From: an uncultured Verrucomicrobiota bacterium
GTDB lineage: Bacteria; Verrucomicrobiota; Verrucomicrobiia; Methylacidiphilales; UBA1321
DNA length: 64,000 bases
Direction: 5' to 3'
NCBI GenBank assembly: GCA_903863295.1
Contig: CAIPBM010000112.1
Location: 1 to 64,000, forward strand
The notes under the pieces are model-generated. The model was not told the DNA's origin and ran no database searches. It saw nothing but the letters and a program-made list of their open reading frames with translations. Position numbers and translations under genes: made by a program. This document shows, in pieces, positions 23,150 to 64,000 of the stretch (position 1 is its first letter; each line of letters starts with the position of its first letter).

Positions 23150-24835
23150 ATGAAAAAAATCGAGTCTTCATTTCCATTACTCACAGCAGCCATCGCTAGC
23201 GTGCTTCTCTTCTCGGCCCTATCCGCCTCGCATGCGGATAATCCGATGGACGGTGCACCTCCGGTCAAATTGCTGCCCGCCTTCCGCCCGGTCGGAGGTT
23301 CCGGCAACAATCTGCTGCATCCGAATTTTGATCCTGTACCCGGAAGCGCGGAACTCGCCTTCACGCCCCTCAATTTTGCTCCGGGAACAAAAAACGGCTT
23401 AATCAGCGGCCCCAACGCCCGGACGATCAGCAACGTCATTGCCGGTGGCACGGGAGCCAATGGGCAAAACGGGGAAACGACCGATCCGGTCGCCTCCGCG
23501 TGGCTCTATGTCTTCGGGCAGTTCGTCGATCATGATCTCAGTCTGGAATCGACCCCATCAACCTCCGCCGCGATCAATATCGTTGTTCCGCCGAACGATC
23601 CGGTCTTCACACCGGGTACGAGCATCGCCATGACCCGGGATGTCAGAAGTCCGGTGACCAACACCATCATCAATACCGTCGCCGGGTATCTTGACCTCTC
23701 GCAGCTTTATGGCTCCGATGCTGCCACCGCGGCCAGTCTCCGCAATGCCGATGGCACGTTGAAAAGCTCCGACAACGGCCTGGCCCTTCAAGTGGTGGAC
23801 GATTCTTTCATTACCGGCGATGCCCGTGTGATGGAAAATCCTGAGCTGTCTGCCGTCACCATCCTTTTCATGCGCGAGCACAATACGTGGGTCGCCACCC
23901 TCAAGGAGGAACATCCCACCTGGACTGGCGATCAGCTCTACAACATGGCCAAGTCCATCACCACGGCGGAATACCAGAATATCGTTTATACGGAATACCT
24001 GCCCGTGCTGATCGGACCGGTGCTGGGGCCCTATCGCGGGTACAATCCGAATCTGAATGCGCAGGTGACCCAGGAGTTTTCCACGGCTGCTTTCCGCGTC
24101 GGTCATTCGCAAATCTCCGATACCCAGGAGGGCCTCGATAACATTGGCAACGTCATCTTTAGCGAATCGCTGGCTCAGGCCTTCTTCAACACGGCATCCA
24201 TTGACGAGGCCAATGGCATCGACCCACTTCTGCGCGCCATCTGCGCGGACGATTCACAGGCCACCGATGTCTACACCGTGCCTGTCCTGCGCAATCTCCT
24301 CTTCGCGCCGCTCGTCGGAGGTGATGTCGATGAAATGGATCTCATTGCCATCGATATTCAGCGCCAGAGGGACGTCGGTCTCGGTTCACTCAACCAGACG
24401 CGCAAGGCTCTTGGGTTGGCGCCCTACACCTCGTTTGCCCAATTGACGTCCGATCCCGTCCTGCAAAAGAATCTCCAGTCCGTTTATGGCAATATTAATA
24501 ACGTCGATCTGTTCATGGGTGGGCAAGCCGAGGCCCATGCTCCGGGAGCCGTAGTGGGGCAAACCTTCCAGGCGGTTATCGCCAGCCAGTTCTTTGCCTT
24601 GAGGGAGGGGGATCGCTTTTTCTGGCTGAACGAGGGCTTCGATCCGGCCACCAGTGCCCTTATCGCGAGTACCACCCTGGCCGATATCATTATGCGGAAC
24701 ACCGATACCACCACGACGCTGCAACCCAATGTCTTTCTCCAGGCAGGCGCCGTGCCTCACGTCAAGGTGCATGTCAACCCGCCGCCCCGCTTGCCCGCGC
24801 CACCTGCAGGCCAGAGCAAAATCCGCCTGCCTTAA
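23150..24835 (+). CDS. Animal-type haem peroxidase, secreted
   Basis: Bacterial member of the animal haem peroxidase (peroxidase-cyclooxygenase) superfamily, 561 residues. A signal peptide (LLTAAIASVLLFSALSASHA) directs export. The distal His motif is VFGQFVDHDLSLE (about residue 125); LDLSQLYGSD, FMREHNTWVATL and the proximal His segment STAAFRVGHSQIS follow in the expected order, as does the C-terminal IDIQRQRDVGLGSLNQTRKALG. It would use hydrogen peroxide to oxidise halides or organic donors outside the cytoplasm. It stands alone, with its own terminator at 24903-24933. Confidence 0.9.
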   Translation: MKKIESSFPLLTAAIASVLLFSALSASHADNPMDGAPPVKLLPAFRPVGGSGNNLLHPNFDPVPGSAELAFTPLNFAPGTKNGLISGPNARTISNVIAGGTGANGQNGETTDPVASAWLYVFGQFVDHDLSLESTPSTSAAINIVVPPNDPVFTPGTSIAMTRDVRSPVTNTIINTVAGYLDLSQLYGSDAATAASLRNADGTLKSSDNGLALQVVDDSFITGDARVMENPELSAVTILFMREHNTWVATLKEEHPTWTGDQLYNMAKSITTAEYQNIVYTEYLPVLIGPVLGPYRGYNPNLNAQVTQEFSTAAFRVGHSQISDTQEGLDNIGNVIFSESLAQAFFNTASIDEANGIDPLLRAICADDSQATDVYTVPVLRNLLFAPLVGGDVDEMDLIAIDIQRQRDVGLGSLNQTRKALGLAPYTSFAQLTSDPVLQKNLQSVYGNINNVDLFMGGQAEAHAPGAVVGQTFQAVIASQFFALREGDRFFWLNEGFDPATSALIASTTLADIIMRNTDTTTTLQPNVFLQAGAVPHVKVHVNPPPRLPAPPAGQSKIRLP

Positions 24836-51963: not shown

Positions 51964-53085
51964 TTAGGCAATTTTTCTGCGAAACATCCAATTGGCCGCG
52001 AGGTTGGTGATAAGAGCGATCAACAGCAGGGGCCAGAGGTGATCAAGAACAAACCCGGTCGAGGATCCCTTGAGAAAGATGCTCTTAACAATGACGATCA
52101 GATGCCGAAGGGGGTTTGCTTCTGTAACCATCTGCAACCATCCGGGCATGTTGTCAATGGGGGCGGCATAACCTGACAGCATCACCGCTGGCATCATAAA
52201 GGTGAAAACGCCGAGGAAGGCCTGCTGTTGGGTTTCGCAGACGGAGGAAATGAGCAGGCCGATGCCGGAAACAGCAATCGCGTAGAAAAAAATGCTTACA
52301 TAAAGCAGGACGAGAGAGCCCTCAAAAGGCACTCCATAAAAAATGACTGCGGCCAGCAGAATCAGGGTGCCTTGAATCATGGCAACCAGGACAGCCGGAA
52401 CGGTTTTACCGACCATGATCATTCCCGGGGTGAGAGGAGAAACCAGGAGTTGATCGAAGGTTCCCTGCTCACGCTCACGGGCGATGGAGAGCGAAGTCAC
52501 GATCAGGACGCTGATGGTCGTAATCATTGCGACGAGGGAGGGCAAAACGAAGAATTTGTAGTTGAGGTTCGGGTTAAACCAATGGCGCAAGACAATCTGT
52601 GAAGGAGCGATCTGTCCCGCCTCGACCAGCCGGTCATTGTTGTAGGACTGAATAATCGATTCCACATAACCGAGCGCAATTTGACCACTATTGGAGCGAC
52701 GTCCGTCGACGATGGCTTGAATGTCGGCCTCCTGCCCAGAGGCGACCTTGCGGGAGAAATCGACCGGAATGAAAAGAACGAGAAGCGCATTCTGATTTTC
52801 AATGGTGCTTTTCATCTCCTGTTCGCTCTGGAGGTTGATGTAATGGGTGAAGGCTTCGGCCCGGGCAAAGCGTTGAATAAGTTCAATGGAAGCCGGCCCC
52901 GCATCGTGATTGAGCACCGCCAGGGTGTTGTTTTGGACGTCGAGCGTCACCGCAAAAGGGAAAAGCGCGGTTTGAAGAATCACCGGCAGGAAAAGCAGAA
53001 CCCGACTCTGCGGATCTCCAAAGAGGGTCTGGAGCTCCTTGATAATGAGAGCGCGAATGCGTTTAAACATGGTCGTGCTAATCAA
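51964..53085 (-). CDS. ABC-2 type export permease, YbhR-like
   Basis: A 373-residue permease of the YhhJ/YbhR type. One helix lies near the N-terminus (residues about 22-40), then a large extracytoplasmic domain to about 175, then five helices to the end. EREQGTFDQLLVSPLTPGMIMVGKTVPAVL is the ABC-2 signature stretch. Last gene of the four-gene unit; its start overlaps the other permease gene by eight bases. It would form a heterodimer with that protein in the inner membrane. Confidence 0.9.
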   Translation of the reverse strand: MISTTMFKRIRALIIKELQTLFGDPQSRVLLFLPVILQTALFPFAVTLDVQNNTLAVLNHDAGPASIELIQRFARAEAFTHYINLQSEQEMKSTIENQNALLVLFIPVDFSRKVASGQEADIQAIVDGRRSNSGQIALGYVESIIQSYNNDRLVEAGQIAPSQIVLRHWFNPNLNYKFFVLPSLVAMITTISVLIVTSLSIAREREQGTFDQLLVSPLTPGMIMVGKTVPAVLVAMIQGTLILLAAVIFYGVPFEGSLVLLYVSIFFYAIAVSGIGLLISSVCETQQQAFLGVFTFMMPAVMLSGYAAPIDNMPGWLQMVTEANPLRHLIVIVKSIFLKGSSTGFVLDHLWPLLLIALITNLAANWMFRRKIA

Positions 53086-54226
53086 GGCGCTTCCGGGTAA
53101 AGCGTGCAGTCAGCCCGATCAGCACCAGACCTGAGACCAGAAGGAAGAGGCTATTGCGGAGCAGAATCGGCCATAAATCACCGGCTTGGAAAAGGGTTTG
53201 CATGCAGGTGACAAAGTAACGGGCGGGGAAGAGATAAGTAACCGCTCGGATGGGGGCAGGCATGCTGCTGATTTCATAAATGAAGCCCGAGAACATCATG
53301 GAGGGCAGAAAGGCAAGATTGAGCGCTGCTTGCGCGGCATTGAATTGATTCTTCATGAGCGTAGAGATCAGCAAACCCGCGCCTAGGGTGGTGAGAAGAA
53401 AGAGCGTTGAAACGAGAAAAAGCGCGAAAATCGAGCCGCGAAAGGGAACACCCAGCACGAACACGGCAACGATGACGCAGATCATCAGTGAAACGATGCC
53501 CAAGACATAATAGGGAATTAATTTGGAGAGCAAAAACTCCGTGCGGGTCATTGGCGAAGCCAGCAGGGCTTCCATGGTGCCCCGTTCCCATTCGCGCGCG
53601 ACCACCAGCGAGGTCAAAAGCGCACCCACCACAGTCATGATTAATGTGATTGAGCCAGGAACGAGAAAATTGCGGCTCTCGGCGGATGGATTAAACCAGA
53701 ATCGCTCCTGAACTCCGATTTGCCCAGGAGCACGAATTCCCTGGGCCAGATTCCGTTGCGCGAGCCAATCCTGCCAGGCCCCAAGGGTGTAACCCTGCAC
53801 GAACGCCGCGAGTTGAGGCTCGGCTCCATCGGTTACCACTTGCACCGGCGCGGAATCTCCCGGTCGCTTTAAGTCGTCACTAAAATTTTGTTGAATCACG
53901 ACAAAGCCGCGAATGGTGCCGTCCATGATTTCGTCTTCGAGTTGTTTCCGGTTCTGCGCCGGTAAAACGGAAAAATATTTCGAACCGTAGAAACTGGCGG
54001 CGAATCGATTCGCTTCTTCACTCTGATCTTCAACGAGAAGACCAATTTTTGTCGCACCGGAGTCGAGATTGATCCCGTAACCGAAGATGAAAAGCATGAT
54101 CAGTGGGAGCACAAACGCGATCAGGTTGCTGCTCGGATCGCGGATGATCTGGAGCGTCTCCTTGAGGCAAAGCGCCTTGAGCCGACGCCAAGAAATAGCT
54201 TCCGATTTCGCCTTAGTTTTGTTCAT
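53078..54226 (-). CDS. ABC-2 type export permease, YbhS-like
   Basis: A 382-residue permease paralogous to the next one. N-terminal helix (IAFVLPLIMLFIFGYGINLD), extracytoplasmic domain, then five helices. ABC-2 signature REWERGTMEALLASPMTRTEFLLSKLIPYY. Its start overlaps the ATPase gene by 14 bases. Transport of cationic drugs or similar compounds is known for the Escherichia coli YbhFSR system; specificity here is inferred. Confidence 0.9.
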   Translation of the reverse strand: MNKTKAKSEAISWRRLKALCLKETLQIIRDPSSNLIAFVLPLIMLFIFGYGINLDSGATKIGLLVEDQSEEANRFAASFYGSKYFSVLPAQNRKQLEDEIMDGTIRGFVVIQQNFSDDLKRPGDSAPVQVVTDGAEPQLAAFVQGYTLGAWQDWLAQRNLAQGIRAPGQIGVQERFWFNPSAESRNFLVPGSITLIMTVVGALLTSLVVAREWERGTMEALLASPMTRTEFLLSKLIPYYVLGIVSLMICVIVAVFVLGVPFRGSIFALFLVSTLFLLTTLGAGLLISTLMKNQFNAAQAALNLAFLPSMMFSGFIYEISSMPAPIRAVTYLFPARYFVTCMQTLFQAGDLWPILLRNSLFLLVSGLVLIGLTARFTRKRLD

Positions 54227-55940
54227 GGCGGTCCTTGGTCACGAGTTCAATAAAGGCGTCTTCCATGCTTGGGTCCGAATTCTTGTCGGTGCGGACCATC
54301 TCCTTCAATTCGTCCGGGGTATTGGCCGCGATCATCTTTCCGCGAAAGACCAGTCCAATCCGGTCGCAATATTCCGCTTCGTCCATGAAGTGCGTGGTCA
54401 CCATGACGGTCACTCCCTTTTCCACCACGCTGTTGATGTGAGTCCAAAATTCTCGTCGGGTCACTGGGTCCACACCGGAAGTCGGCTCATCCAGGAAGAG
54501 AATGTCGGGCCGATGCATCATGGCGCAGGCCAGGGCCAGGCGTTGTTTGAAGCCGAGGGGCAGGCTGTCGGCGGAGGATTTAAGATAAGGTTCAAGATGA
54601 AAAATCTGAACCATACTGGCTACTTCCTGCCGCTGCTCGTTCCCATCGAGTCCGTAAGCCCCGGAAAAGAACATCAGATTCTGTTGCACGCTTAGATTGC
54701 CATAGAGGGAGAATTTCTGAGCCATGTAACCGAGGTGCTGCCTTGCCTTGCTGGCGCTGGTTTTGAGATCGATATCGGTCACCAAGGCTTTTCCGGATGT
54801 TGGCTGCAGCAGGCCGCACATCATTTTGAATATTGTTGATTTTCCCGCTCCATTCGGACCCAAAAGCCCGAAGATTTCACCGCGCACGACCTTAAAGCTG
54901 ACGTCGTCCGTCGCGGTAAAATCACCAAAGCGCTTCGTTAGGTGGGTAGCCTCGATAACGGTCGATCCGTCCTTCTTCAGATTTTCCAAATGATCCGCGA
55001 GAGGCGACTTCCCCGGTGGCTTTTCACCCAAGACATCCAGGAAAGCGTCTTCAAACCGAGGTGGGATAGGAACCCAATGGGCCTTCGGCCCAGCCTGGAG
55101 ATCTTCCAGTTTGGGTTTGTCCGCGTTTTTCTGGAGGACAACGCGAACGCTATTCCCCTGAATCACGGCATCAAGAACTTCGTCGCAATCCAAGACGCGG
55201 GTTAGCACCTCTCGACGACTCCCGGTAATCTCCCGCAATTGAAAGCAACGTCCCTCCATACGCGAGGTCATTTCTTTCGGTGGACCGTTGAAAAGCATTC
55301 GTCCTTCACTGAGCAGCAGCACATCGTCGCAAAGCTCGGCTTCCTCGAGATACGCCGTGCTCCAAACCACGGTGATATCCTGGGAGACGAGGTCACGCAC
55401 CATCTTCCAGAGTTCGCGCCTCGAAATGGGATCGACACCGACACCCGGCTCGTCGAGAAGTAGCAATTTGGGCTGCCCCAAGAGGGCACAAGCGAGGCCA
55501 AGCTTTTGTTTCATGCCGCCTGAAAGCTTTCCCGCCATACGATCCGTGAAGCTCGTCAGGTCGGTCAATTTTAGCAAATGTTGAAATTCCTCTTCACGTT
55601 CATGATCGATCACGTCGCGCAAATCGGCGTGCAGGTTGAGGTTTTCCTGGACGGAGAGATCTTCATAAAGACCGAATTTCTGGGGCATGTAGCCGATGAT
55701 TTTGCGTAGTTCGGACGTATCCCTGATGGGATCCAGATCTATGATTTTGATGGTGCCTGAAGTCAGATGCATCAGACCCGCCATCAAACGTAGGAGCGTC
55801 GTCTTACCCGCTCCATCGGGCCCGACCAGCCCCGTCACTTTTCCCGGCATAATTTGCGCGGTCAGCTCCTCAAGAGCCGCCTTTTCACGGTGTGGAAAAA
55901 CTTTCTTCACCCGATCCAGATGAATAAGGGCATCCGACAT
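54213..55940 (-). CDS. ybhF: Tandem-ATPase ABC transporter protein, YbhF-like
   Basis: A 575-residue protein with two complete nucleotide-binding domains. First: Walker A GPDGAGKTT (about residue 40), signature LSGGMKQKLGLACALL, Walker B LLLLDEP. Second: Walker A GPNGAGKST (about 350), signature LPLGFKQRLALACAMM and Walker B ILFLDEPTSGVDP, the form usual for YbhF second halves. It powers the two permeases that follow. Three bases separate it from the fusion protein gene upstream. Confidence 0.93.
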   Translation of the reverse strand: MSDALIHLDRVKKVFPHREKAALEELTAQIMPGKVTGLVGPDGAGKTTLLRLMAGLMHLTSGTIKIIDLDPIRDTSELRKIIGYMPQKFGLYEDLSVQENLNLHADLRDVIDHEREEEFQHLLKLTDLTSFTDRMAGKLSGGMKQKLGLACALLGQPKLLLLDEPGVGVDPISRRELWKMVRDLVSQDITVVWSTAYLEEAELCDDVLLLSEGRMLFNGPPKEMTSRMEGRCFQLREITGSRREVLTRVLDCDEVLDAVIQGNSVRVVLQKNADKPKLEDLQAGPKAHWVPIPPRFEDAFLDVLGEKPPGKSPLADHLENLKKDGSTVIEATHLTKRFGDFTATDDVSFKVVRGEIFGLLGPNGAGKSTIFKMMCGLLQPTSGKALVTDIDLKTSASKARQHLGYMAQKFSLYGNLSVQQNLMFFSGAYGLDGNEQRQEVASMVQIFHLEPYLKSSADSLPLGFKQRLALACAMMHRPDILFLDEPTSGVDPVTRREFWTHINSVVEKGVTVMVTTHFMDEAEYCDRIGLVFRGKMIAANTPDELKEMVRTDKNSDPSMEDAFIELVTKDRHEQN

Positions 55941-55943
55941 GAC

Positions 55944-56852
55944 TCAGCGGAGGTGAATTTTAACGGTACACGGCATTCCCTGGCGCAATTGCGGACCGGA
56001 GTCATCGATGACTATGCGTAATCGATAGACCAACGAGGTGCGGAGATCGGTTGTTTCAACCGATTTTGGGGTGAACTCTGCTTCGGGAGAAACAAAGCCC
56101 ACTTGCCCGTGGTATGGGTGGTCGGGCTGCGTATCGGTAAATACCTCGACCGCTTCTCCGGGATGAACGTCGCCCAAGTTACTCTCTGCGATATAGGCTC
56201 GAACCCAGACAGGGTGGTAAAGGGAAACCGTGAGGACCGTATTCCCTGATGGTACGATTGCACCCGGTTCTTCAGCCCGAGTCATTACGACTCCATCAGA
56301 GGGTGAGTGGATTTCCGAGTCGTTGAGATCGGTTTGAGCCGAGGCGAGTTGTGCCTGCGCCAGGTGAAGGCCCGGTAAGGCCTGATCACGGGCCGAGAGA
56401 TCGTTATCGTAGGTCAGCTTCGAGATGCCTCCACTGCTTACCATGGTCTCATCACGTTTCAGCGTGATTTCAGCATCCTTGAGTATCGCCGCCTTGACTT
56501 CCACATCAGCAGTGTGCATCGCGAGGGCATCCTTGTAAATCGACTGATCGAGGCTGGCGACTAATTCGCCTTGGGACACTGAATCACCCTCGTCCTTGAG
56601 CACGGTCTCGATACGTCCTGGTACGCGAAAACCCAGATTGACGTCCCGGATATCGACATCGCCGTAGAGCACCAAGACCGTTGGTTTGCCTCTCAGTGCG
56701 AAGTATAAAACCGGCACCAAAATGATCAGGCTCAATCCGATCCCTAAACCGATCTTGAGCCAAGCGGGTTGGGCGAGAAGCGAAGACCAGACGGACGATA
56801 TCGAGGTTTTTGGGACCTTGGCATCTGACAGAGATCGAGGGAGTTGAGTCAT
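55944..56852 (-). CDS. HlyD-family membrane fusion protein, YbhG-like
   Basis: Periplasmic adaptor of about 302 residues. One N-terminal helix (LKIGLGIGLSLIILVPVLYFAL), then a lipoyl-like half (RVPGRIETVLKDEGDSVSQG), a helical hairpin of modest length (about 110-190) and the second half IHSPSDGVVMTRAEEPGAIV. ATG at 56852 (MTQLPRS) is preferred; an upstream ATG at 56885 is also in frame. First gene of the efflux unit, 62 bases from the palindromic operator at 56912-56930. Confidence 0.9.
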   Translation of the reverse strand: MTQLPRSLSDAKVPKTSISSVWSSLLAQPAWLKIGLGIGLSLIILVPVLYFALRGKPTVLVLYGDVDIRDVNLGFRVPGRIETVLKDEGDSVSQGELVASLDQSIYKDALAMHTADVEVKAAILKDAEITLKRDETMVSSGGISKLTYDNDLSARDQALPGLHLAQAQLASAQTDLNDSEIHSPSDGVVMTRAEEPGAIVPSGNTVLTVSLYHPVWVRAYIAESNLGDVHPGEAVEVFTDTQPDHPYHGQVGFVSPEAEFTPKSVETTDLRTSLVYRLRIVIDDSGPQLRQGMPCTVKIHLR

Positions 56853-56911
56853 ACAGCTTATGCCACGTTGGTGTCGTCGGTGCATAGTGACACGGCCTCA
56901 TCAGGAATCCC

Positions 56912-56930
56912 TATAGGGTGAACACCCCAT
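56912..56930. promoter_or_regulatory. Palindromic operator GGGT-N4-ACCC, site 1
   Basis: TATAGGGTGAACACCCCAT: half-sites AGGGT and ACCCC separated by GAAC. It lies between the divergent efflux operon (start 56852, minus) and the BON-protein gene (start 57026, plus), so could control both. Three more sites of the same form occur at 60231, 60627 and 61617 and none was seen outside this 5-kb block. Confidence 0.7.
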
Positions 56931-57025
56931 GGCGCAGAGAGGAAACCCGGAGGAATCTTCCACTTCGGAATAGCCTCAGGACTACGCCTTCCAAACAACT
57001 TCCTGAAATTTGAAAGATTCACCCC

Positions 57026-57712
57026 ATGAAAACCACCCTAGAGAAAAGCGATACGGAAATTAAAACTGACGTGTTGGCAGAATTGAAATACGAGCCAAGT
57101 GTAAAAGTGACCGACATCGGCGTTTTGGTCAAAGACGGGACAGTTACCCTAAACGGAAGTGCAACGAGCTATGCCGAAAAATGGGAAGCGGTGCGCGCTG
57201 CCAAACGAGTAGCTGGCGTAACAGCTATCGCCGATGATATCACGGTCAAGCTCTGGGATTCATTTGTCCGCACGGACACAGATATTGCAACAACCGCTGC
57301 TAATCAGATCAAATCGATCACCTCCATTCCGACCGGAAAGGTTCAACTTACGGTAAGTAACGGCTGGATTACCCTGGATGGCGAACTGGAATGGTGGTTT
57401 GAAAAAGACGAGGCCGAACGTACCGTTCGAGGTCTGGCGGGGGTCAAAGGCGTTTCAAACCTGATCAAGATCAAACCAAAACTTTCCGCTTCCGACATCG
57501 TCAGGGATCTCAAATGGGCCTTCGAACGAAACTCCCAGTTGTACGACTGTGACATCGCGGTCGAGGCGTCCGGAAGCAAAGTCACCCTTCGGGGCACCGT
57601 TTACAACTATTCCGAGCGCGAGGAAGCTGTACGCGTCGCCTGGGCAGCGGCAGGGGTCTCCTCGGTGGATGATCTCATTGAGATCGACTGGTCGGATGGA
57701 ATGGACGACTAG
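57026..57712 (+). CDS. Triple-BON-domain protein, OsmY-like
   Basis: A 228-residue protein made of three BON domains at about residues 8-76, 83-151 and 154-222. Each has the beta-alpha-beta plan with the repeated GTVTLNG / GWITLDG / SKVTLRG strand and VRAAKRVAGV / VRGLAGVKGV / VRVAWAAAGV helix. BON domains bind phospholipid surfaces and relatives are osmotic-shock or stress proteins. No signal peptide is visible, unlike OsmY. Preceded by palindrome site 1. Confidence 0.87.
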   Translation: MKTTLEKSDTEIKTDVLAELKYEPSVKVTDIGVLVKDGTVTLNGSATSYAEKWEAVRAAKRVAGVTAIADDITVKLWDSFVRTDTDIATTAANQIKSITSIPTGKVQLTVSNGWITLDGELEWWFEKDEAERTVRGLAGVKGVSNLIKIKPKLSASDIVRDLKWAFERNSQLYDCDIAVEASGSKVTLRGTVYNYSEREEAVRVAWAAAGVSSVDDLIEIDWSDGMDD

Positions 57713-57748
57713 TCCGGTCTAACTGAATCAAACGCGATAAATTTGGTC

Positions 57749-57776
57749 GTGCGTCCACTATACCCAGTGGACGCAC
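57749..57776. terminator. Perfect hairpin after the BON gene
   Basis: Stem GTGCGTCCACT / AGTGGACGCAC, 11 bp and perfect, with a six-base loop ATACCC, 36 bases after the stop codon. No T run follows on either strand, so it may end transcription by another route, protect the 3' end, or act as a binding site. Confidence 0.5.
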
Positions 57777-57850
57777 TCGAATGATCCATCCTCATGCAAT
57801 GCGGCGGTCTGTCAGCCAGAACACTGGTCTTTTGATAAAAGGAAGTCTCA

Positions 57851-58405
57851 ATGAAATTAGCTGAAACTATCTACGGGCGTCGCTCAACGCGCGCCTTCTC
57901 GCATCAGTCGGTGACAAAGTCCCTTTTGGAACGGCTGATTGACTCCGCCGTTCAAGCGCCAAGCGCCCGCAATCAGCAGCCGTGGGAGTTCGTGATTATT
58001 CAAAATATCCCGCTGCTTGACCAGATTTCGGAGTCCTCCAAAGCGCATATCAGGGGAACGGAAAAGGGTTTATTGGCTCTCCATCCGCACGATTCTCTGA
58101 ACGATCCGGACTTTCACATTTTCTATCATGCACCCGTACTCATTGTCATCTCGGCCGAACAAGGAGATTGGGCGGTCGAAAATGCGGCCCTTGCAGCTGA
58201 AAACCTGATGCTGGTGGCTCATGCGAACGCGCTGGGAACTTGTTGGATTGGTCTTGCGCAAGACTGGCTTGGTACCGCCGACGGCAGGCGCGCTATTGGC
58301 GTCCCCGAAGGGTTCTTGCCAGTTGCGCCGATTATTGTGGGGCACCCGTCAGGAGACGTGTCGCCGGTTCCCCGTAATCCAGCCCGGCTGCGGTGGATTA
58401 ATTGA
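57851..58405 (+). CDS. Nitroreductase-family FMN oxidoreductase
   Basis: A 184-residue nitroreductase. The N-terminal IYGRRSTRAFSHQSV and SAVQAPSARNQQPWEFVIIQ are the FMN-binding hallmarks; ALAAENLMLVAHANALGTCWIGL is the conserved core helix. FMN-dependent NAD(P)H oxidation of nitro compounds or quinones is expected. Its stop overlaps the TTG start of the next gene, suggesting coupling. Confidence 0.9.
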   Translation: MKLAETIYGRRSTRAFSHQSVTKSLLERLIDSAVQAPSARNQQPWEFVIIQNIPLLDQISESSKAHIRGTEKGLLALHPHDSLNDPDFHIFYHAPVLIVISAEQGDWAVENAALAAENLMLVAHANALGTCWIGLAQDWLGTADGRRAIGVPEGFLPVAPIIVGHPSGDVSPVPRNPARLRWIN

Positions 58406-59427
58406 CGACCACAGCGCAATGCCTTGGTCTCGTTTCGTGCAAGCGACGATTACTCGCGTTCACCCTTGGCCTGTTCGCCTCGACTTGGATCGGCGGCTGG
58501 ACTTTCGCGGAAAACTTCACCGAGGGCCGTGACGTTGCTCCCTTTTCCGTCCTCCAAAATGGCGACTACATCTGGAAGCCCGAAATTTCTCCATCTGGTC
58601 CGGTTCTGATCATCGTTAGCACGCCTGATCAACTACTCTACGTTTATCGCAATGGAATTCGCATTGGTCGTTCCACCGTCAGCACGGGGCGACCTGGCCA
58701 TCGGACTCCCTCCGGTGTCTTTACCATCCTTCAGAAGCAGGTTGACCACTACTCCACCATCTACCACGGGGCACCCATGCCATTTATGGAACGGCTTACT
58801 TGGGGTGGCGTAGCTCTCCATGGGGGCGATCTCCCCGGCTTTGCTGATTCTCACGGCTGTATTCGTCTGCCGCTAAAGTTCGCCAAGCTACTTTATACCA
58901 TCACGGATAAAGGCACGACCGTCATGGTTACCAATGGCGCAACCAACTCCGAAATTTCCGACCATCCTGGCTATCTCCTGTCGTCCAAAGGAGGCGAAAC
59001 CGCCAGCGAAGCGGGATCGAACGGCGATTACCAGTGGAATCCTGAGGAATCGCCGTCTGGCCCTGTCTCCATCGTCTTTAGTGCCAAGTCCTCGCGTATT
59101 TATGTCTTTCGGAACGGTGTGGAGATAGGTCGCGCCGTGGTTCGAGGTGGCGAAAATATGAACCTTGGCCTGCATGCCTACGCGGCTCTCGATCAGTTTG
59201 ACACCGAGGGCCATCGCCAGTGGAGCGCCATCAACACCCTCGGAGATAACAACGCACCTGACGTTCGTGATCTAGCCAAGCATCTATCCATCCCACCTGC
59301 CTTCCTGACTCAGCTTCGCACCGTGATACAAACCGGCACCACCCTGGTGGTCAGTGATATTCCCGTGGATCGTAGTACCCCCATCGAAACTGGGGTTAAC
59401 ATTCTGACCACTGATGTTCAGCGTTAG
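58402..59427 (+). CDS. L,D-transpeptidase-like protein with two YkuD-type domains
   Basis: A 341-residue exported protein. Signal segment LAFTLGLFASTWIGGWTFAE, then a YkuD domain at about 65-175 with the catalytic motif in full: His140 in GVALHGG and SHGCIRL at 150-156 (Cys153, Arg155). A second, related segment (about 218-320, SGPVSIVFSAKSSRIYVFRN, same FRNGVEIGRAVV pattern) has lost the His and the SHGC motif. It would crosslink peptidoglycan or attach proteins to it, with one active and one degenerate domain. TTG start at 58402 overlaps the nitroreductase stop. Confidence 0.83.
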   Translation: MTTTAQCLGLVSCKRRLLAFTLGLFASTWIGGWTFAENFTEGRDVAPFSVLQNGDYIWKPEISPSGPVLIIVSTPDQLLYVYRNGIRIGRSTVSTGRPGHRTPSGVFTILQKQVDHYSTIYHGAPMPFMERLTWGGVALHGGDLPGFADSHGCIRLPLKFAKLLYTITDKGTTVMVTNGATNSEISDHPGYLLSSKGGETASEAGSNGDYQWNPEESPSGPVSIVFSAKSSRIYVFRNGVEIGRAVVRGGENMNLGLHAYAALDQFDTEGHRQWSAINTLGDNNAPDVRDLAKHLSIPPAFLTQLRTVIQTGTTLVVSDIPVDRSTPIETGVNILTTDVQR

Positions 59428-59543
59428 TTGCTCTGGCTTGCGCAAGCTAATGACATCGTACGCCTCATTCATCTTGTCATGCTGTCAGTCGGACACGAGG
59501 CGTAAAACAGATGCGACCGGAATCCGACGCCTGACTTAGCGTC

Positions 59544-60137
59544 CTATAATTTAAGCAAGACTTGGACGATGCTCTCCTCGGTTAAGTCTTGCGCCGCAAA
59601 GTCGAGGCTTCGGCAAAGATTTATGGCCTCTTGATCGATGTCCAGAAACTTACCGACTAAAATTTTAAATCGAAACGCCCGCCCCAGATCTACGAGTCGA
59701 TTGAGAAGAATTTTGGCTAACTTGGGGATATTGGCCTCATCGCCGATCAGGATGTCGAACGTGGCGACATAAGGTTCGGGAGTCCTGACTAAACGCCCCA
59801 CGGCCAAGATTCTCACGCTCGACCGAGGGTGGGCTGGTTGTTCGATGACCACGGAGTAAACTTCGGCCGTATTGGTGCAAACCCGGACTAGGCCCTCGTG
59901 AGAGGTTCGCCCATCGAATCCGATATACCCAAAGTAACGCAAACAAATGGTCTTGGGGGACAAGCAGCGATGAAACTCGACCATCTTGCTTTCGTCATCC
60001 AGTCGTATCGGGCGGAGCTTGAGCTTACTGAATCCTGTGACTTCAACAGTGCGCTCCAGATGCATGCGATGGGGACGACGTGAAAAATCCGGAATTGATT
60101 CTTCAGTCTTGGATGCGGGACGAGGCGTATTCTTCAT
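59544..60137 (-). CDS. GNAT-family acetyltransferase-like protein
   Basis: A 197-residue protein. KLRPIRLDDESKMVEFHRCL and SPKTICLRYFG at about 38-70 match the GNAT domain found alone or fused in protein acetyltransferases of the Pat type. RILAVGRLVRTPEPYVATFD holds the core strands; the acetyl-CoA loop region is KLAKILLNRLVDLGRAF. The first 24 residues are basic and disordered-looking; an ATG at 60065 would omit them. Palindrome site 2 lies 94 bases upstream. Substrate unknown. Confidence 0.68.
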   Translation of the reverse strand: MKNTPRPASKTEESIPDFSRRPHRMHLERTVEVTGFSKLKLRPIRLDDESKMVEFHRCLSPKTICLRYFGYIGFDGRTSHEGLVRVCTNTAEVYSVVIEQPAHPRSSVRILAVGRLVRTPEPYVATFDILIGDEANIPKLAKILLNRLVDLGRAFRFKILVGKFLDIDQEAINLCRSLDFAAQDLTEESIVQVLLKL

Positions 60138-60230
60138 TGCGACCTAACGTAATGGCGCACATCGGCTAGAATTCACTTTCGGGACGTAACGGCCACGAAG
60201 GCAACCTGAACAAAATTGCAGGCATCGCCT

Positions 60231-60248
60231 ATGGGGTACTTACCCCAT
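60231..60248. promoter_or_regulatory. Palindromic operator GGGT-N4-ACCC, site 2
   Basis: ATGGGGT-ACTT-ACCCCAT, a perfect palindrome across both 7-base halves. It lies 94 bases upstream of the minus-strand GNAT gene. A lone half-site CTATGGGGT occurs nearby at 60292-60300. Confidence 0.75.
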
Positions 60249-60353
60249 TTCGTATGACGGGCGACCACTTATTCCCGACTTCCAGATGAGGCTATGGGGT
60301 TCAGGCATCAACGATTGAATCAACCTTCAGGGGTTAGCGAAGGTCATCAAGGT

Positions 60354-60593
60354 TTAGTTCAGTATGGCACCAGTTAACGGCGAGTCATGGCATGGTTGAG
60401 AATTCAATGATTCCCAAGTAGAAGCTTGTGCGGAAGCCTGACTTCCATCCGCAGGAATAAACCAGGTGCCATTCACCTGAATGGCAGCAGGGATCAGATC
60501 AGGACTTTCGGAAAGCTCAATTTTGATGAAAGTTTCAAACTTCTCGTTTCCAGCAATATCTTTATTGTCTCTCAGTTCAATCGGAATTTGCAT
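60354..60593 (-). CDS. Small hypothetical protein
   Basis: A 79-residue protein with no recognised family: mixed charged and hydrophobic residues (ELRDNKDIAGNEKFETFIKI, then PAAIQVNGTWFIP), no signal peptide or helix of membrane type. It has palindrome site 3 34 bases upstream of its ATG, which supports it being expressed. Start ATG at 60593. Confidence 0.45.
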   Translation of the reverse strand: MQIPIELRDNKDIAGNEKFETFIKIELSESPDLIPAAIQVNGTWFIPADGSQASAQASTWESLNSQPCHDSPLTGAILN

Positions 60594-60626
60594 TTCTTAT
60601 ATTAGCATTTCGGTTGGGACTAGCCA

Positions 60627-60644
60627 TTAGGGTGAATACCCCAT
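60627..60644. promoter_or_regulatory. Palindromic operator GGGT-N4-ACCC, site 3
   Basis: TTAGGGT-GAAT-ACCCCAT, the same half-sites and spacing as sites 1, 2 and 4, extended by AGG. It lies 34 bases upstream of the small minus-strand gene ending at 60354. Confidence 0.7.
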
Positions 60645-60679
60645 AGGCGTGAACCATTTTTGCCTTAGAAGGTCGGGGC

Positions 60680-61558
60680 CTATGGTCTTGTGAATCCGGC
60701 ACGAAAAGTATCCGCATGTTTCTTGGCAAACGCCTCCCAAGTCACCGGTTTTCTGCCGGTCAAACGTTCGAAATTATCAAAAACCTGATCCGGGTGCGGA
60801 ATTTTTCCCTGAGCATAGGCAAAATAATGCTGGTAGACACAGTTCATGTAGGCGGGGTCCGCCCCTGCTGCCAAGACTTTGGCGAGGAACTCTTCAGGAG
60901 GCCGCGAATCATACCGGAAGGGTTGCCCGATCACTTCACTTAGAATGCGCGCAACGTCATTTAAGGATTGTGCGTCATACCCCATCCGGTAGGTCTGACC
61001 GTTATGAGCCTCTGCGTCCCTGAGAGAAACGGCGGCAACCTCGGCAACATCCTCACAATCGACCCAGCTGAGCCGGGCTTGTCCGAAGTACTGTTCGATG
61101 ACTCCGTTGACCACGGTGGGCTTCCCGCTGTAGCCCAAAAGATTCTGCATGAATTGTTCCGGTCGTAGATGAGTGAAAGAAAACCCGCGCCATTCGATAT
61201 AGCGCTCGACGAGTTGATGCCATACCCAATGGGCCACGGTCGCCTCGTCGTCGCCGCACGCGCCTAAATGGACGACATGCCGGACATTGGCTTTGGCCGC
61301 TTCGTCAAGGAACGCCTTGCTCTGTCGCATCATGTCGACGGTGTATCCCGTCATGAGGAAGACACGGTCGATTCCTTGGAGTGCCGGCGCGAACGTTTCA
61401 ATCCTGTCGAGATCAAGCTCAACGAACTGCACTCCTAGACTCTCTCCCTTTTTCTTGCTGCGGACGGCGGCAATAACTTCGAGAGACGAATCGCTTTTCA
61501 AATTTTCCACAACCTTGCGACCGACCTGACCGGTAGCTCCGGTAATAAGAATCCGCAT
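60680..61558 (-). CDS. NmrA-type NAD(P)-dependent reductase/sensor
   Basis: A 292-residue atypical short-chain dehydrogenase. Nucleotide motif ILITGATGQVGRKVVENL (GxxGxxG) at the start; VRHVVHLGACGDDEATVAHW and LRPEQFMQNLL match the NmrA/QorB group, which lacks the usual YxxxK and often acts as a redox sensor or quinone reductase. No palindrome lies in its frame, but site 4 is 59 bases upstream of its start, shared with the divergent DUF3300 gene. Confidence 0.87.
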   Translation of the reverse strand: MRILITGATGQVGRKVVENLKSDSSLEVIAAVRSKKKGESLGVQFVELDLDRIETFAPALQGIDRVFLMTGYTVDMMRQSKAFLDEAAKANVRHVVHLGACGDDEATVAHWVWHQLVERYIEWRGFSFTHLRPEQFMQNLLGYSGKPTVVNGVIEQYFGQARLSWVDCEDVAEVAAVSLRDAEAHNGQTYRMGYDAQSLNDVARILSEVIGQPFRYDSRPPEEFLAKVLAAGADPAYMNCVYQHYFAYAQGKIPHPDQVFDNFERLTGRKPVTWEAFAKKHADTFRAGFTRP

Positions 61559-61616
61559 ATATTTGTTACTTGAAAGTCAAAGTAATCGAATTTGCAACGT
61601 ATGCGAACCGTTAGCC

Positions 61617-61634
61617 ATGGGGTCAAGACCCCAT
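61617..61634. promoter_or_regulatory. Palindromic operator GGGT-N4-ACCC, site 4
   Basis: ATGGGGT-CAAG-ACCCCAT, perfect over both 7-base halves, flanked by CC and AGCGC. It sits between the divergent NmrA-type gene (start 61558) and DUF3300 gene (start 61673). Confidence 0.75.
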
Positions 61635-61672
61635 AGCGCAGGACAAAGGCCCCGGCTTACGTTTGTTACCTG

Positions 61673-62836
61673 ATGAGGAACACCTTTAAGCTCTCTCTTT
61701 TACTGCTCGTTATCATCGGCACTACCGTAGCCGTGTTAGCGCAAATACCGGTCCCGCCCCCGGCACCAGCCAATCAGACTTTTTCCGACGCGCAGCTTGA
61801 CCAGATTCTGGGTTCCATCGCGCTTTATCCCGACCCACTGATTGCCCAAATACTTCCGGCCTCCACCTTTCCAACACAAATCGTTTTGGCCGACCGTTAT
61901 ATCGTAGGCGGCGGAGACCCTAATCAACTCGACCAGCAAGCTTGGGATCCAAGCGTCCAAGCGGTAGCGCGATACCCGGATGTGCTGAAGTGGATGGATA
62001 CCAATTTGGGTCAGACAACAGAACTCGGGCAGGCTTTTCTTAATCAACAGCCAGCAGTGATGGCTTCCATCCAAAGACTGCGTGCGACTGCTTCCAAGCT
62101 CGGCAATTTGCAAACCACATCGCAGCAACAGGTGACCACAGACGACGGCAATATTGAAATTGACCCGGCGGACTCTCAGCAGATGTATGTGCCGGTTTAC
62201 CAGCCAGACCAAGTTTATGATGACGAAGCGGACGGCACACCCTACATAACCTTCGGAATCGGTTATCCGTTTGGCTATTGGATGGATAATGATTTTGATT
62301 GGGGAAATGGCGACCTGATCTACTGGAATCATGGCTATTCGCGGCCTGCCAATTGGTGGCATGGTTCACGAGGGCAACGGAATAATGGCAACACGTCTGT
62401 TTGGCATCGCAGCAATCGTTCAAACGGGGCCGCGATGAATCGAGGCGACCGAGGTTGGTCACAACAAGCTCCATCTCCAGAGGCAACGAGGCAGGAACAG
62501 GCTCGTCAAGCTCCGCAACCGAATTCACGGGCCAATGCGGTTCCCCGGCCTGCAGCCGCTCCGGATCAACATTTTGCGCCTGTCAGGCAAGGGGAAGCAA
62601 ATGCCGCGCTCATCGGCAGCCAGAGTACGCACGAGGCCAGGACCTACAGCGACCGTGGCCAACAGAGTATGCGTGCGTTCACTCCTTCGGCCCCGGCTTC
62701 CCGCCCACAAGCTTCCTTCCATTCAGCGCCGGCTTCCGGCGGTGGTACCCATGCGGGAGGCGGTGGAGGTGGCGGCGGTCATGCAGGTGGCGGAGGTGGC
62801 GGCCACGCCGGTGGTGGCGGTGGAGGGCATCATTAG
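61673..62836 (+). CDS. DUF3300 family exported protein with Gly/His tail
   Basis: A 387-residue protein. A signal peptide (LSLLLLVIIGTTVAVLAQ) is followed by the DUF3300 core at about 35-180 (LDQILGSIALYPDPLIAQIL, VLADRYIVGGGDPNQLD, ARYPDVLKWM). Trp-rich segments (FGYWMDNDFDWGNGDLIYW) come next. The last 35 residues are mostly Gly and His (GGGGGGGHAGGGGGGHAGGG-type, ending HH), a likely metal-binding or surface tail. Envelope role unknown. Its neighbour DUF2950 is a frequent companion. Confidence 0.83.
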   Translation: MRNTFKLSLLLLVIIGTTVAVLAQIPVPPPAPANQTFSDAQLDQILGSIALYPDPLIAQILPASTFPTQIVLADRYIVGGGDPNQLDQQAWDPSVQAVARYPDVLKWMDTNLGQTTELGQAFLNQQPAVMASIQRLRATASKLGNLQTTSQQQVTTDDGNIEIDPADSQQMYVPVYQPDQVYDDEADGTPYITFGIGYPFGYWMDNDFDWGNGDLIYWNHGYSRPANWWHGSRGQRNNGNTSVWHRSNRSNGAAMNRGDRGWSQQAPSPEATRQEQARQAPQPNSRANAVPRPAAAPDQHFAPVRQGEANAALIGSQSTHEARTYSDRGQQSMRAFTPSAPASRPQASFHSAPASGGGTHAGGGGGGGGHAGGGGGGHAGGGGGGHH

Positions 62837-62880
62837 CTCGTACTCCAGAAAACATTGAACCTTAGAACCGAATAATTCCC

Positions 62881-63933
62881 ATGCAGATATTACCAGTGAC
62901 GAAACTCCTCTCTTTTTCATGGCTATGTCGGATTGTTTCCACCGCCTCCGGTCTTGCTCTCATTGTATTGACGCTGCCCATTAATGCGTTGGCAGCAAAT
63001 GAACAAACCTTCGCTTCGCCGCAGGATGCCCTCAATGCGCTGGTGACTGCGGCAACAAATCACGACGAGAATGCCCTTCATCTAATTTTTGGGCCCGAGG
63101 GACACGCTTTGGTTTCGCCCGATCTGGTTCAGGCCAGCGATGAATCGGCTCTATTTATCAAACGCCTGACCCAGAAGGTGCAGTTGTTCAACAACTCGGA
63201 TTCCAATATCACGCTTGAAATTGGCACGGACAGTTGGCCCTTCCCTATCCCGCTCGTGAAACAGGACGGTAAATGGTTCTTCGATTCCACTGCCGGAAAG
63301 CACGAGATCCTCGCCCGCCGGATTGGCCGGGATGAAATCGGCGCGATCAATGTCAGCAATGCCTACGTGGACGCACAGCGCGAATATGCCAGTCAGGACC
63401 GCATGGGGGACGGCGTGCTTGCATATGCGCAATTCCTGCACAGCAACGCCGACAAGCACGACGGGCTTTACTGGCACTCGCAGCCGGGCGAGGAGTTGAG
63501 TCCCCTAGGGCCGTTGATCGCCCAAGCTCACGTCGAAGGCTACCATCACACTGCTAAAATGCTCAACGACGAGCAGGCACCCTATCACGGTTACTATTTT
63601 AAAATCCTGACCAGCCAGGGAAAACAAGCACGGGGCGGTGCGTACGACTACATTATCAATGGCCGCATGATTGCCGGCTTTGCTTTCATCGCCTGGCCGG
63701 CCCAATGGGGCGATACAGGCGTCATGACCTTCATCGTCAACCAACAAGGCAAGGTCTATCAAAAGAACCTGGGATCCTCGACGTTTGACATTGCCCAGGA
63801 CATGACCGCTTTTGCGCCGAATGACACTTGGGCTCCGGTACAGGCTGATCCTGTAATGATTGCCCAGCGCCCCAGCGACGATCCCAGCCTGAAACCTGGA
63901 ACGGTTCCGGAGAGCGGCCATGCAAATCATTGA
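62881..63933 (+). CDS. DUF2950 family exported protein
   Basis: A 350-residue protein. Signal segment LALIVLTLPINALAAN, then ASPQDALNALVTAATNHDEN, LIFGPEGHALVSPD and HEILARRIGRDEIGAINVS, matching DUF2950; C-terminal AYDYIINGRMIAGFAFIAWP and TGVMTFIVNQQGKVYQKNLG also fit. Function of the family is unknown. 44 bases after DUF3300 and probably in the same transcript, under palindrome site 4. Confidence 0.87.
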   Translation: MQILPVTKLLSFSWLCRIVSTASGLALIVLTLPINALAANEQTFASPQDALNALVTAATNHDENALHLIFGPEGHALVSPDLVQASDESALFIKRLTQKVQLFNNSDSNITLEIGTDSWPFPIPLVKQDGKWFFDSTAGKHEILARRIGRDEIGAINVSNAYVDAQREYASQDRMGDGVLAYAQFLHSNADKHDGLYWHSQPGEELSPLGPLIAQAHVEGYHHTAKMLNDEQAPYHGYYFKILTSQGKQARGGAYDYIINGRMIAGFAFIAWPAQWGDTGVMTFIVNQQGKVYQKNLGSSTFDIAQDMTAFAPNDTWAPVQADPVMIAQRPSDDPSLKPGTVPESGHANH

Positions 63934-64000
63934 GTGCCTTGGGTACTCAGCGATTCGCGAGTGGGTAACTCATCATTCCCAAGGCCTCTGATAGCGTAAA
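63934..64000. other. End of the window, no gene seen
   Basis: Sixty-seven bases after the DUF2950 stop. GCCTTGGG (63936-63943) and CCCAAGGC (63978-63985) form a perfect 8-bp inverted repeat around a 34-base loop; there is no T run, so calling it a terminator would be weak. Confidence 0.3.

Follow-up and report, generated by a model that had tools for sequence, protein, structure and literature searches.

A short palindrome that recurs between the genes of this uncultured Verrucomicrobiota bacterium, ATGGGGT-N4-ACCCCAT in its perfect form, is predicted to be the operator of a NarL/FixJ-family response regulator (C91:9302–9997), which would activate transcription from about position -42; the probability of this reading is put at roughly 0.8. 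The response regulator very probably switches on some two dozen promoters, those of storage-sugar fermentation, stress and envelope genes, in this bacterium and its relatives. Sequence statistics give the set of sites, their intergenic placement, the geometry of the -10 elements, the co-occurrence of sites and regulator, and the sites upstream of the regulator and kinase genes.

The window, that is the whole 64-kb stretch of DNA analysed (on contig C112), had been described in an earlier note as containing four GGGT-N4-ACCC sites, two of them perfect, and pattern matching recovered all four, at 56916, 60234, 60630 and 61620. The perfect copies of ATGGGGT-N4-ACCCCAT occupy 60231–60248 and 61617–61634, while the left arm deviates in the remaining two (ATAGGGT at 56912–56930 and TTAGGGT at 60627–60644). 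The accompanying statement that the other 59 kb hold no copy is true of the extended form TRGGGTNNNNACCCYA, for which no further match was found in the window, but not of the bare core GGGTNNNNACCC, one additional copy of which lies within a gene at 23889. Four extended matches were found against 0.018 expected (P ~4e-9 for at least four; independent-base model).

Each of the four sites lies 5' of at least one gene start, as had been proposed, and the window contains no regulator gene. Operator 1 (ATAGGGT-GAAC-ACCCCAT; 56912–56930) separates an efflux operon on the minus strand from a gene for a three-BON-domain protein on the plus strand (57026–57712), both being predicted targets. The first gene of the operon specifies an HlyD-type membrane-fusion protein (55944–56885, minus strand) and the rest an ABC ATPase and two permeases (51964–55940). 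Paralogues of the BON protein adjoin sites on contig C79, and 3' of its gene lie those of a nitroreductase-family protein (57851–58405, plus strand) and a YkuD L,D-transpeptidase-domain protein (58402–59427, plus strand), which are possible members of the same operon. Operator 2 (perfect; ATGGGGT-ACTT-ACCCCAT; 60231–60248) is upstream of a predicted target on the minus strand (59544–60137), whose product has no Pfam match and is called GNAT-like after the earlier note; it resembles the product of C91:8461–8982, which likewise adjoins a site. Operator 3 (TTAGGGT-GAAT-ACCCCAT; 60627–60644) precedes a 79 amino acid open reading frame (60354–60593, minus strand), also a predicted target without a Pfam match. 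A TAATAT sequence lies 31 nt from the operator centre; the ATG follows the start of this -10 element by 11 nt and is 42 nt from that centre, so that the transcript is predicted to be leaderless. Operator 4 (perfect; ATGGGGT-CAAG-ACCCCAT; 61617–61634) lies between the genes of an NmrA-like NAD(P)-binding protein (60680–61558, minus strand) and a DUF3300 protein (61673–62836, plus strand), again predicted targets. The latter starts 47 nt from the centre of the operator; TACGTT is found on the plus side at a distance of 32 nt from that centre, and a DUF2950 gene (62881–63933, plus strand) is likely within its operon.

Part of this region is duplicated. The block C112:51964–89280, which includes 51964–64000 of the window and continues beyond it, is paralogous to C7:7857–42134; the two share 19 protein pairs, 18 of them at 71–96% identity and an acetate-kinase-like pair at 33%, and contain the same metabolic and efflux genes with their own operators in each. 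Contamination is an unlikely source of the duplicated blocks, since the related genome G004 also has both versions of the stomatin.

Across the 4.1 Mb genome the strict form TRGGGT-N4-ACCCYA occurs 23 times against about 1.2 expected under the independent-base model, on contigs C7, C79, C91, C112 and C164 only, and the 18-bp form ATRGGGTNNNNACCCYAT matches 20 times against none for its reversed (mirror-image) control. All 23 strict sites are intergenic and precede one gene start or more, while about 87% of the genome DNA examined is coding according to a simple gene caller. The palindrome is thus neither at chance frequency nor mostly intragenic, two of the outcomes which the earlier note had named as fatal to its proposal. 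Matches with one or two mismatches are at background (200 versus 374 for the control, genome-wide), so the strict form alone is informative and weaker sites cannot be claimed. Alignment of the 23 sites revealed an invariant T-(G/A)-GGGT-N4-ACCC-(C/T)-A flanked by A and T, with the central two bases mostly A or T and no clear conservation more than about 10 bp from the centre.

The earlier note had advised looking for a response regulator beside matches elsewhere in the genome, and one of the NarL family is encoded at C91:9302–9997; a strict site precedes its start by 124 bp. This 231 amino acid protein has the REC plus LuxR-type (GerE) HTH architecture of the NarL/FixJ family (PF00072, E-value 3.7e-27; PF00196, E-value 8e-18), and its structure model has a pLDDT of 79.7. 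The phosphorylation-site residues D11, D56, S84 and K106 are invariant in nine orthologues, in which the recognition helix is also mostly invariant (KTV-x-KHR). Near it is the gene of a PAS/HisKA_3 kinase (C91:10901–12298), which a strict site precedes by 191 bp and whose product has no recognised periplasmic sensor domain. Since both genes have a site, the switch is likely to be positively autoregulated. The site-associated kinases possess PAS, HisKA or HisKA_3, and HATPase domains, and a Pfam search at E 0.001 found no GAF domain among them. Interspersed with the site-bearing kinases are a CheB/CheR-like PAS fusion protein, named by eye (C91:12391–15012), and a separate CheB methylesterase (C91:15102–15581).

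Only one other clear LuxR-HTH response regulator is present in the genome, on contig C153, and it was dismissed as a candidate for this role since few relatives possess it (2 of the 29 other genomes tested); a third GerE match, on C162, is a weak one, scoring 24 bits within a 4188-aa frame. Two receiver-only paralogues, about 51% identical to the response regulator (C91:10044–10517 and C164:92050–92580, both minus strand), retain the phosphorylation aspartate, lack the HTH and have an operator each; they are possible phosphate sinks or dimer partners.

The predicted targets outside the window include the genes of phosphoketolase (XFP), transaldolase, a NUDIX protein, glycogen phosphorylase, debranching enzyme, NDH-2 with a cNMP domain and Nramp. 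Further predicted targets, with general-stress proteins among them, are those of stomatin, YflT/DUF1269, DUF883, a DUF5069-ferritin protein (Dps-like ferritin), Ysc84, PRC-barrel and BON proteins, CheB and PAS hybrid kinases, together with the response regulator and kinase genes themselves. Names without a Pfam call were assigned by reading the sequence. The same gene blocks also encode acetate kinase, PPK2, aldolase, a P-type ATPase and nitroreductases, not necessarily with sites of their own.

The label of envelope-stress regulon given in the earlier note is apt for the BON, PRC-barrel, DUF3300 and ABC exporter genes but too narrow, the targets also including genes of energy metabolism and signalling. 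That the regulon is primarily an envelope-stress one, a question of role and not of operator mechanism, is rather unlikely: the L,D-transpeptidase, HlyD, Ysc84 and stomatin genes could be added in its favour, but other targets belong to central energy metabolism or are storage and stress proteins, and the kinase near the regulator is without a recognised periplasmic domain through which such stress might be sensed. The phosphoketolase, transaldolase, glycogen enzymes and NDH-2 point to a response to limited energy or oxygen that has an envelope branch, and by gene content the programme resembles such a response, similar to those of DosR or lxa, more closely than one to pure envelope stress. 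Fermentation of glycogen via phosphoketolase would fit such conditions, again by gene content. Limiting O2 does not raise xfp in Methylacidiphilum SolV (PMC3404531), an observation that is neutral here.

Among 60 genomes of the order, an orthologue of the response regulator (at least 60% identity) is present in ten, all of which have at least two sites, compared with one of the 50 genomes without it (G007); the same-genus genome G001 has neither orthologue nor sites. The most recurrent site neighbours in relatives are homologues of the kinase (8 relatives), Ysc84 (7) and the REC-only protein (6). When the alignment of the regulator was used to scan a genome collection, the loci retrieved were mostly from Verrucomicrobiota, Kiritimatiellae and Lentisphaerae, the closest being in a Candidatus Methylacidiphilales MAG, and 1.12 Mb of such loci contained 35 sites against none for the controls. 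An unbiased search of 79 loci around regulator homologues from other genomes, covering every palindrome of 5- and 6-mers with a spacer of 0–12, ranked TGGGGT-N4-ACCCCA first (23 versus 0.06 expected). The palindrome CATGG-N6-CCATG, also enriched near the homologues, is an artefact, since it encodes the VMDIAMP motif with which the loci were retrieved.

These distributions strongly support the earlier idea of a shared operator for a common regulator, as do the genome-wide sites and the reversed control. They also bear on the alternative that the palindrome belongs to another transcription factor, repressor or activator, of which the C91 response regulator would be a mere target. The regulator was assigned through co-occurrence and the sites 5' of its gene, and G007 (66% complete) has eight operators and no full-length regulator that could be found, its syntenic locus (G007:C3:46650–47123) encoding a REC-only paralogue. 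Against this stand the joint occurrence of sites and orthologues across the 60 genomes, the joint absence from G001, and the same palindrome at loci of other classes that were retrieved by similarity to the regulator alone. Dimeric two-fold operators moreover suit NarL-family response regulators, and another factor is considered quite unlikely.

At the scale of the phylum the association is less strong but persists: at least one site is found in 16 of the 51 genomes with the regulator family and in 28 of the 337 without it (P 2e-5). Since the strict site is missing from many genomes with a homologue, either the motif or the role of the regulator must drift, and the motif probably does so outside this lineage. 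The operator nevertheless recurs next to regulator homologues in additional families of the phylum. One such locus is on the contig of an isolate (Haloferula sp. BvORR071), which makes bench testing feasible.

Of 283 flanks, 125 have a -10-like TANNNT at a distance of 30–32 nt from the palindrome centre, where about 7 would be expected. The excess is present in the genome itself (22/46 flanks versus 1.2 expected), in relatives of the order (81/167 versus 4.2) and at other Verrucomicrobiota loci (22/70 versus 1.8). With such spacing the palindrome is centred near -42 and a separate -35 element cannot be accommodated, from which we infer the position of an activator that replaces it. Within the genome the element is found in 21 of the 35 flanks that face a gene start and in 1 of the 11 that do not (P 0.005; flanks split by hand, the 35 including the small window reading frame). 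Six sites have a -10 on both sides and divergent genes; being symmetric, a single operator can serve two divergent promoters. At 7 of the 23 sites, including 56914 and 60232 of the window, no TANNNT occurs at 29–33 nt on either side. Over the flanks of all sites, ATG codons peak 42–46 nt from the palindrome centre and, counted from the -10 start, at 11–13 nt, so many transcripts should begin at or beside the start codon, and judging by this spacing many transcripts of the regulon look leaderless.

The same geometry is difficult to reconcile with an RNA element, be it a 7-bp hairpin closed by a tetraloop within 5' leaders or a bidirectional terminator. The sequence ATGGGGT-N4-ACCCCAT can be read as a perfect stem-loop, but with the -10 elements downstream of it the palindrome would not be transcribed from these promoters, the loop is unconserved and many genes start exactly where the transcript should begin, all of which make this explanation highly improbable. 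A dispersed repeat of the REP type or a mobile-element end without regulatory role, as the multiple, clustered intergenic copies might suggest, is scarcely credible given that conservation ends at about 18–20 bp, that there are constraints on the -10 spacing and on gene orientation, and that the same signalling genes adjoin the palindrome in different families.

Under the preferred reading, that of an activator operator for the C91 response regulator, we infer that the regulator binds DNA, is phosphorylated in response to a signal, and activates instead of repressing. The signal would be sensed by the kinase through PAS, and the response regulator would be phosphorylated at D56 and then dimerise. 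The predicted binding sequence of the phosphorylated protein is ATGGGGTNNNNACCCCAT, and its dimer would occupy ATGGGGT-N4-ACCCCAT with the centre some 42 bp before the transcription start, taking the place of the -35 element and recruiting RNA polymerase to the TANNNT -10 that lies 30–32 nt from the centre. Transcription of the regulator and kinase would increase in turn. The putative output is energy metabolism based on glycogen and phosphoketolase together with stress and envelope proteins, plausibly for survival when oxygen or energy is limited.

A search of the literature found no regulon with this operator or regulator for Verrucomicrobiota, in which both are apparently unreported. An operator, a likely regulator and kinase, a promoter geometry and about two dozen target promoters can be read from sequence, and testable functions can be offered for DUF3300, DUF2950, BON and further stress proteins that are poorly understood. 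They also provide a means to predict how these uncultured bacteria respond when oxygen or energy is scarce.

The best PDB matches of the response regulator are VraR, DesR and NarL, which have solved structures and the same REC plus LuxR-HTH architecture; their operators and regulons differ from the present one. The arms of the NarL 7-2-7 site have the opposite orientation to this palindrome. In gene content there is a likeness to the low-oxygen-activated lxa locus of Burkholderia cenocepacia, a clustered stress locus with a BON protein and a flavin/nitro-compound reductase, which its authors compare with DosR and for which a FixK-type regulator was suggested (PMC6127331); the comparison was made through that paper only.

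The DosR/DevR dormancy regulon of Mycobacterium tuberculosis has the motif TTSGGGACTWWAGTCCCSAA (PMC2275270), its proximal Dev box overlaps the -35 element (PMC3029386), and the core DNA-contact residues of DosR are K179, K182 and N183 (PMC5999986). Common to both systems are a NarL-subfamily response regulator, a palindromic operator with an outer GGG-N8-CCC register, a proximal site overlapping -35 (here at about -42, as judged from the -10 spacing), divergent promoters, autoregulation (here likely), and nitroreductases and stress proteins in the gene set. On a provisional placement of DosR, the helix IKTVEKHR would have E where DosR has K182, and K in the place of N183. The phosphoketolase/glycogen core lies, to our knowledge, outside the DosR regulon, which is induced by hypoxia or NO. 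In phmmer scores the regulator is closer to VraR (148 bits) than to DevR (104 bits). Unlike the consensus TTSGGGACTWWAGTCCCSAA, the strict sites TRGGGT-N4-ACCCYA lack the inner ACT/AGT (GGGGT versus GGGACT half-site), and where DosS and DosT are GAF/heme kinases, a PAS/HisKA_3 kinase without GAF by Pfam is found here. Because of these differences in operator consensus and kinases the regulon was not assigned to DosR. It may tentatively be regarded as a DosR-like survival regulon spread across much of Verrucomicrobiota under one family of NarL-type activators, in which symmetric -42 operators, divergent promoters and often leaderless mRNAs would couple glycogen/phosphoketolase fermentation to stress and envelope remodelling.
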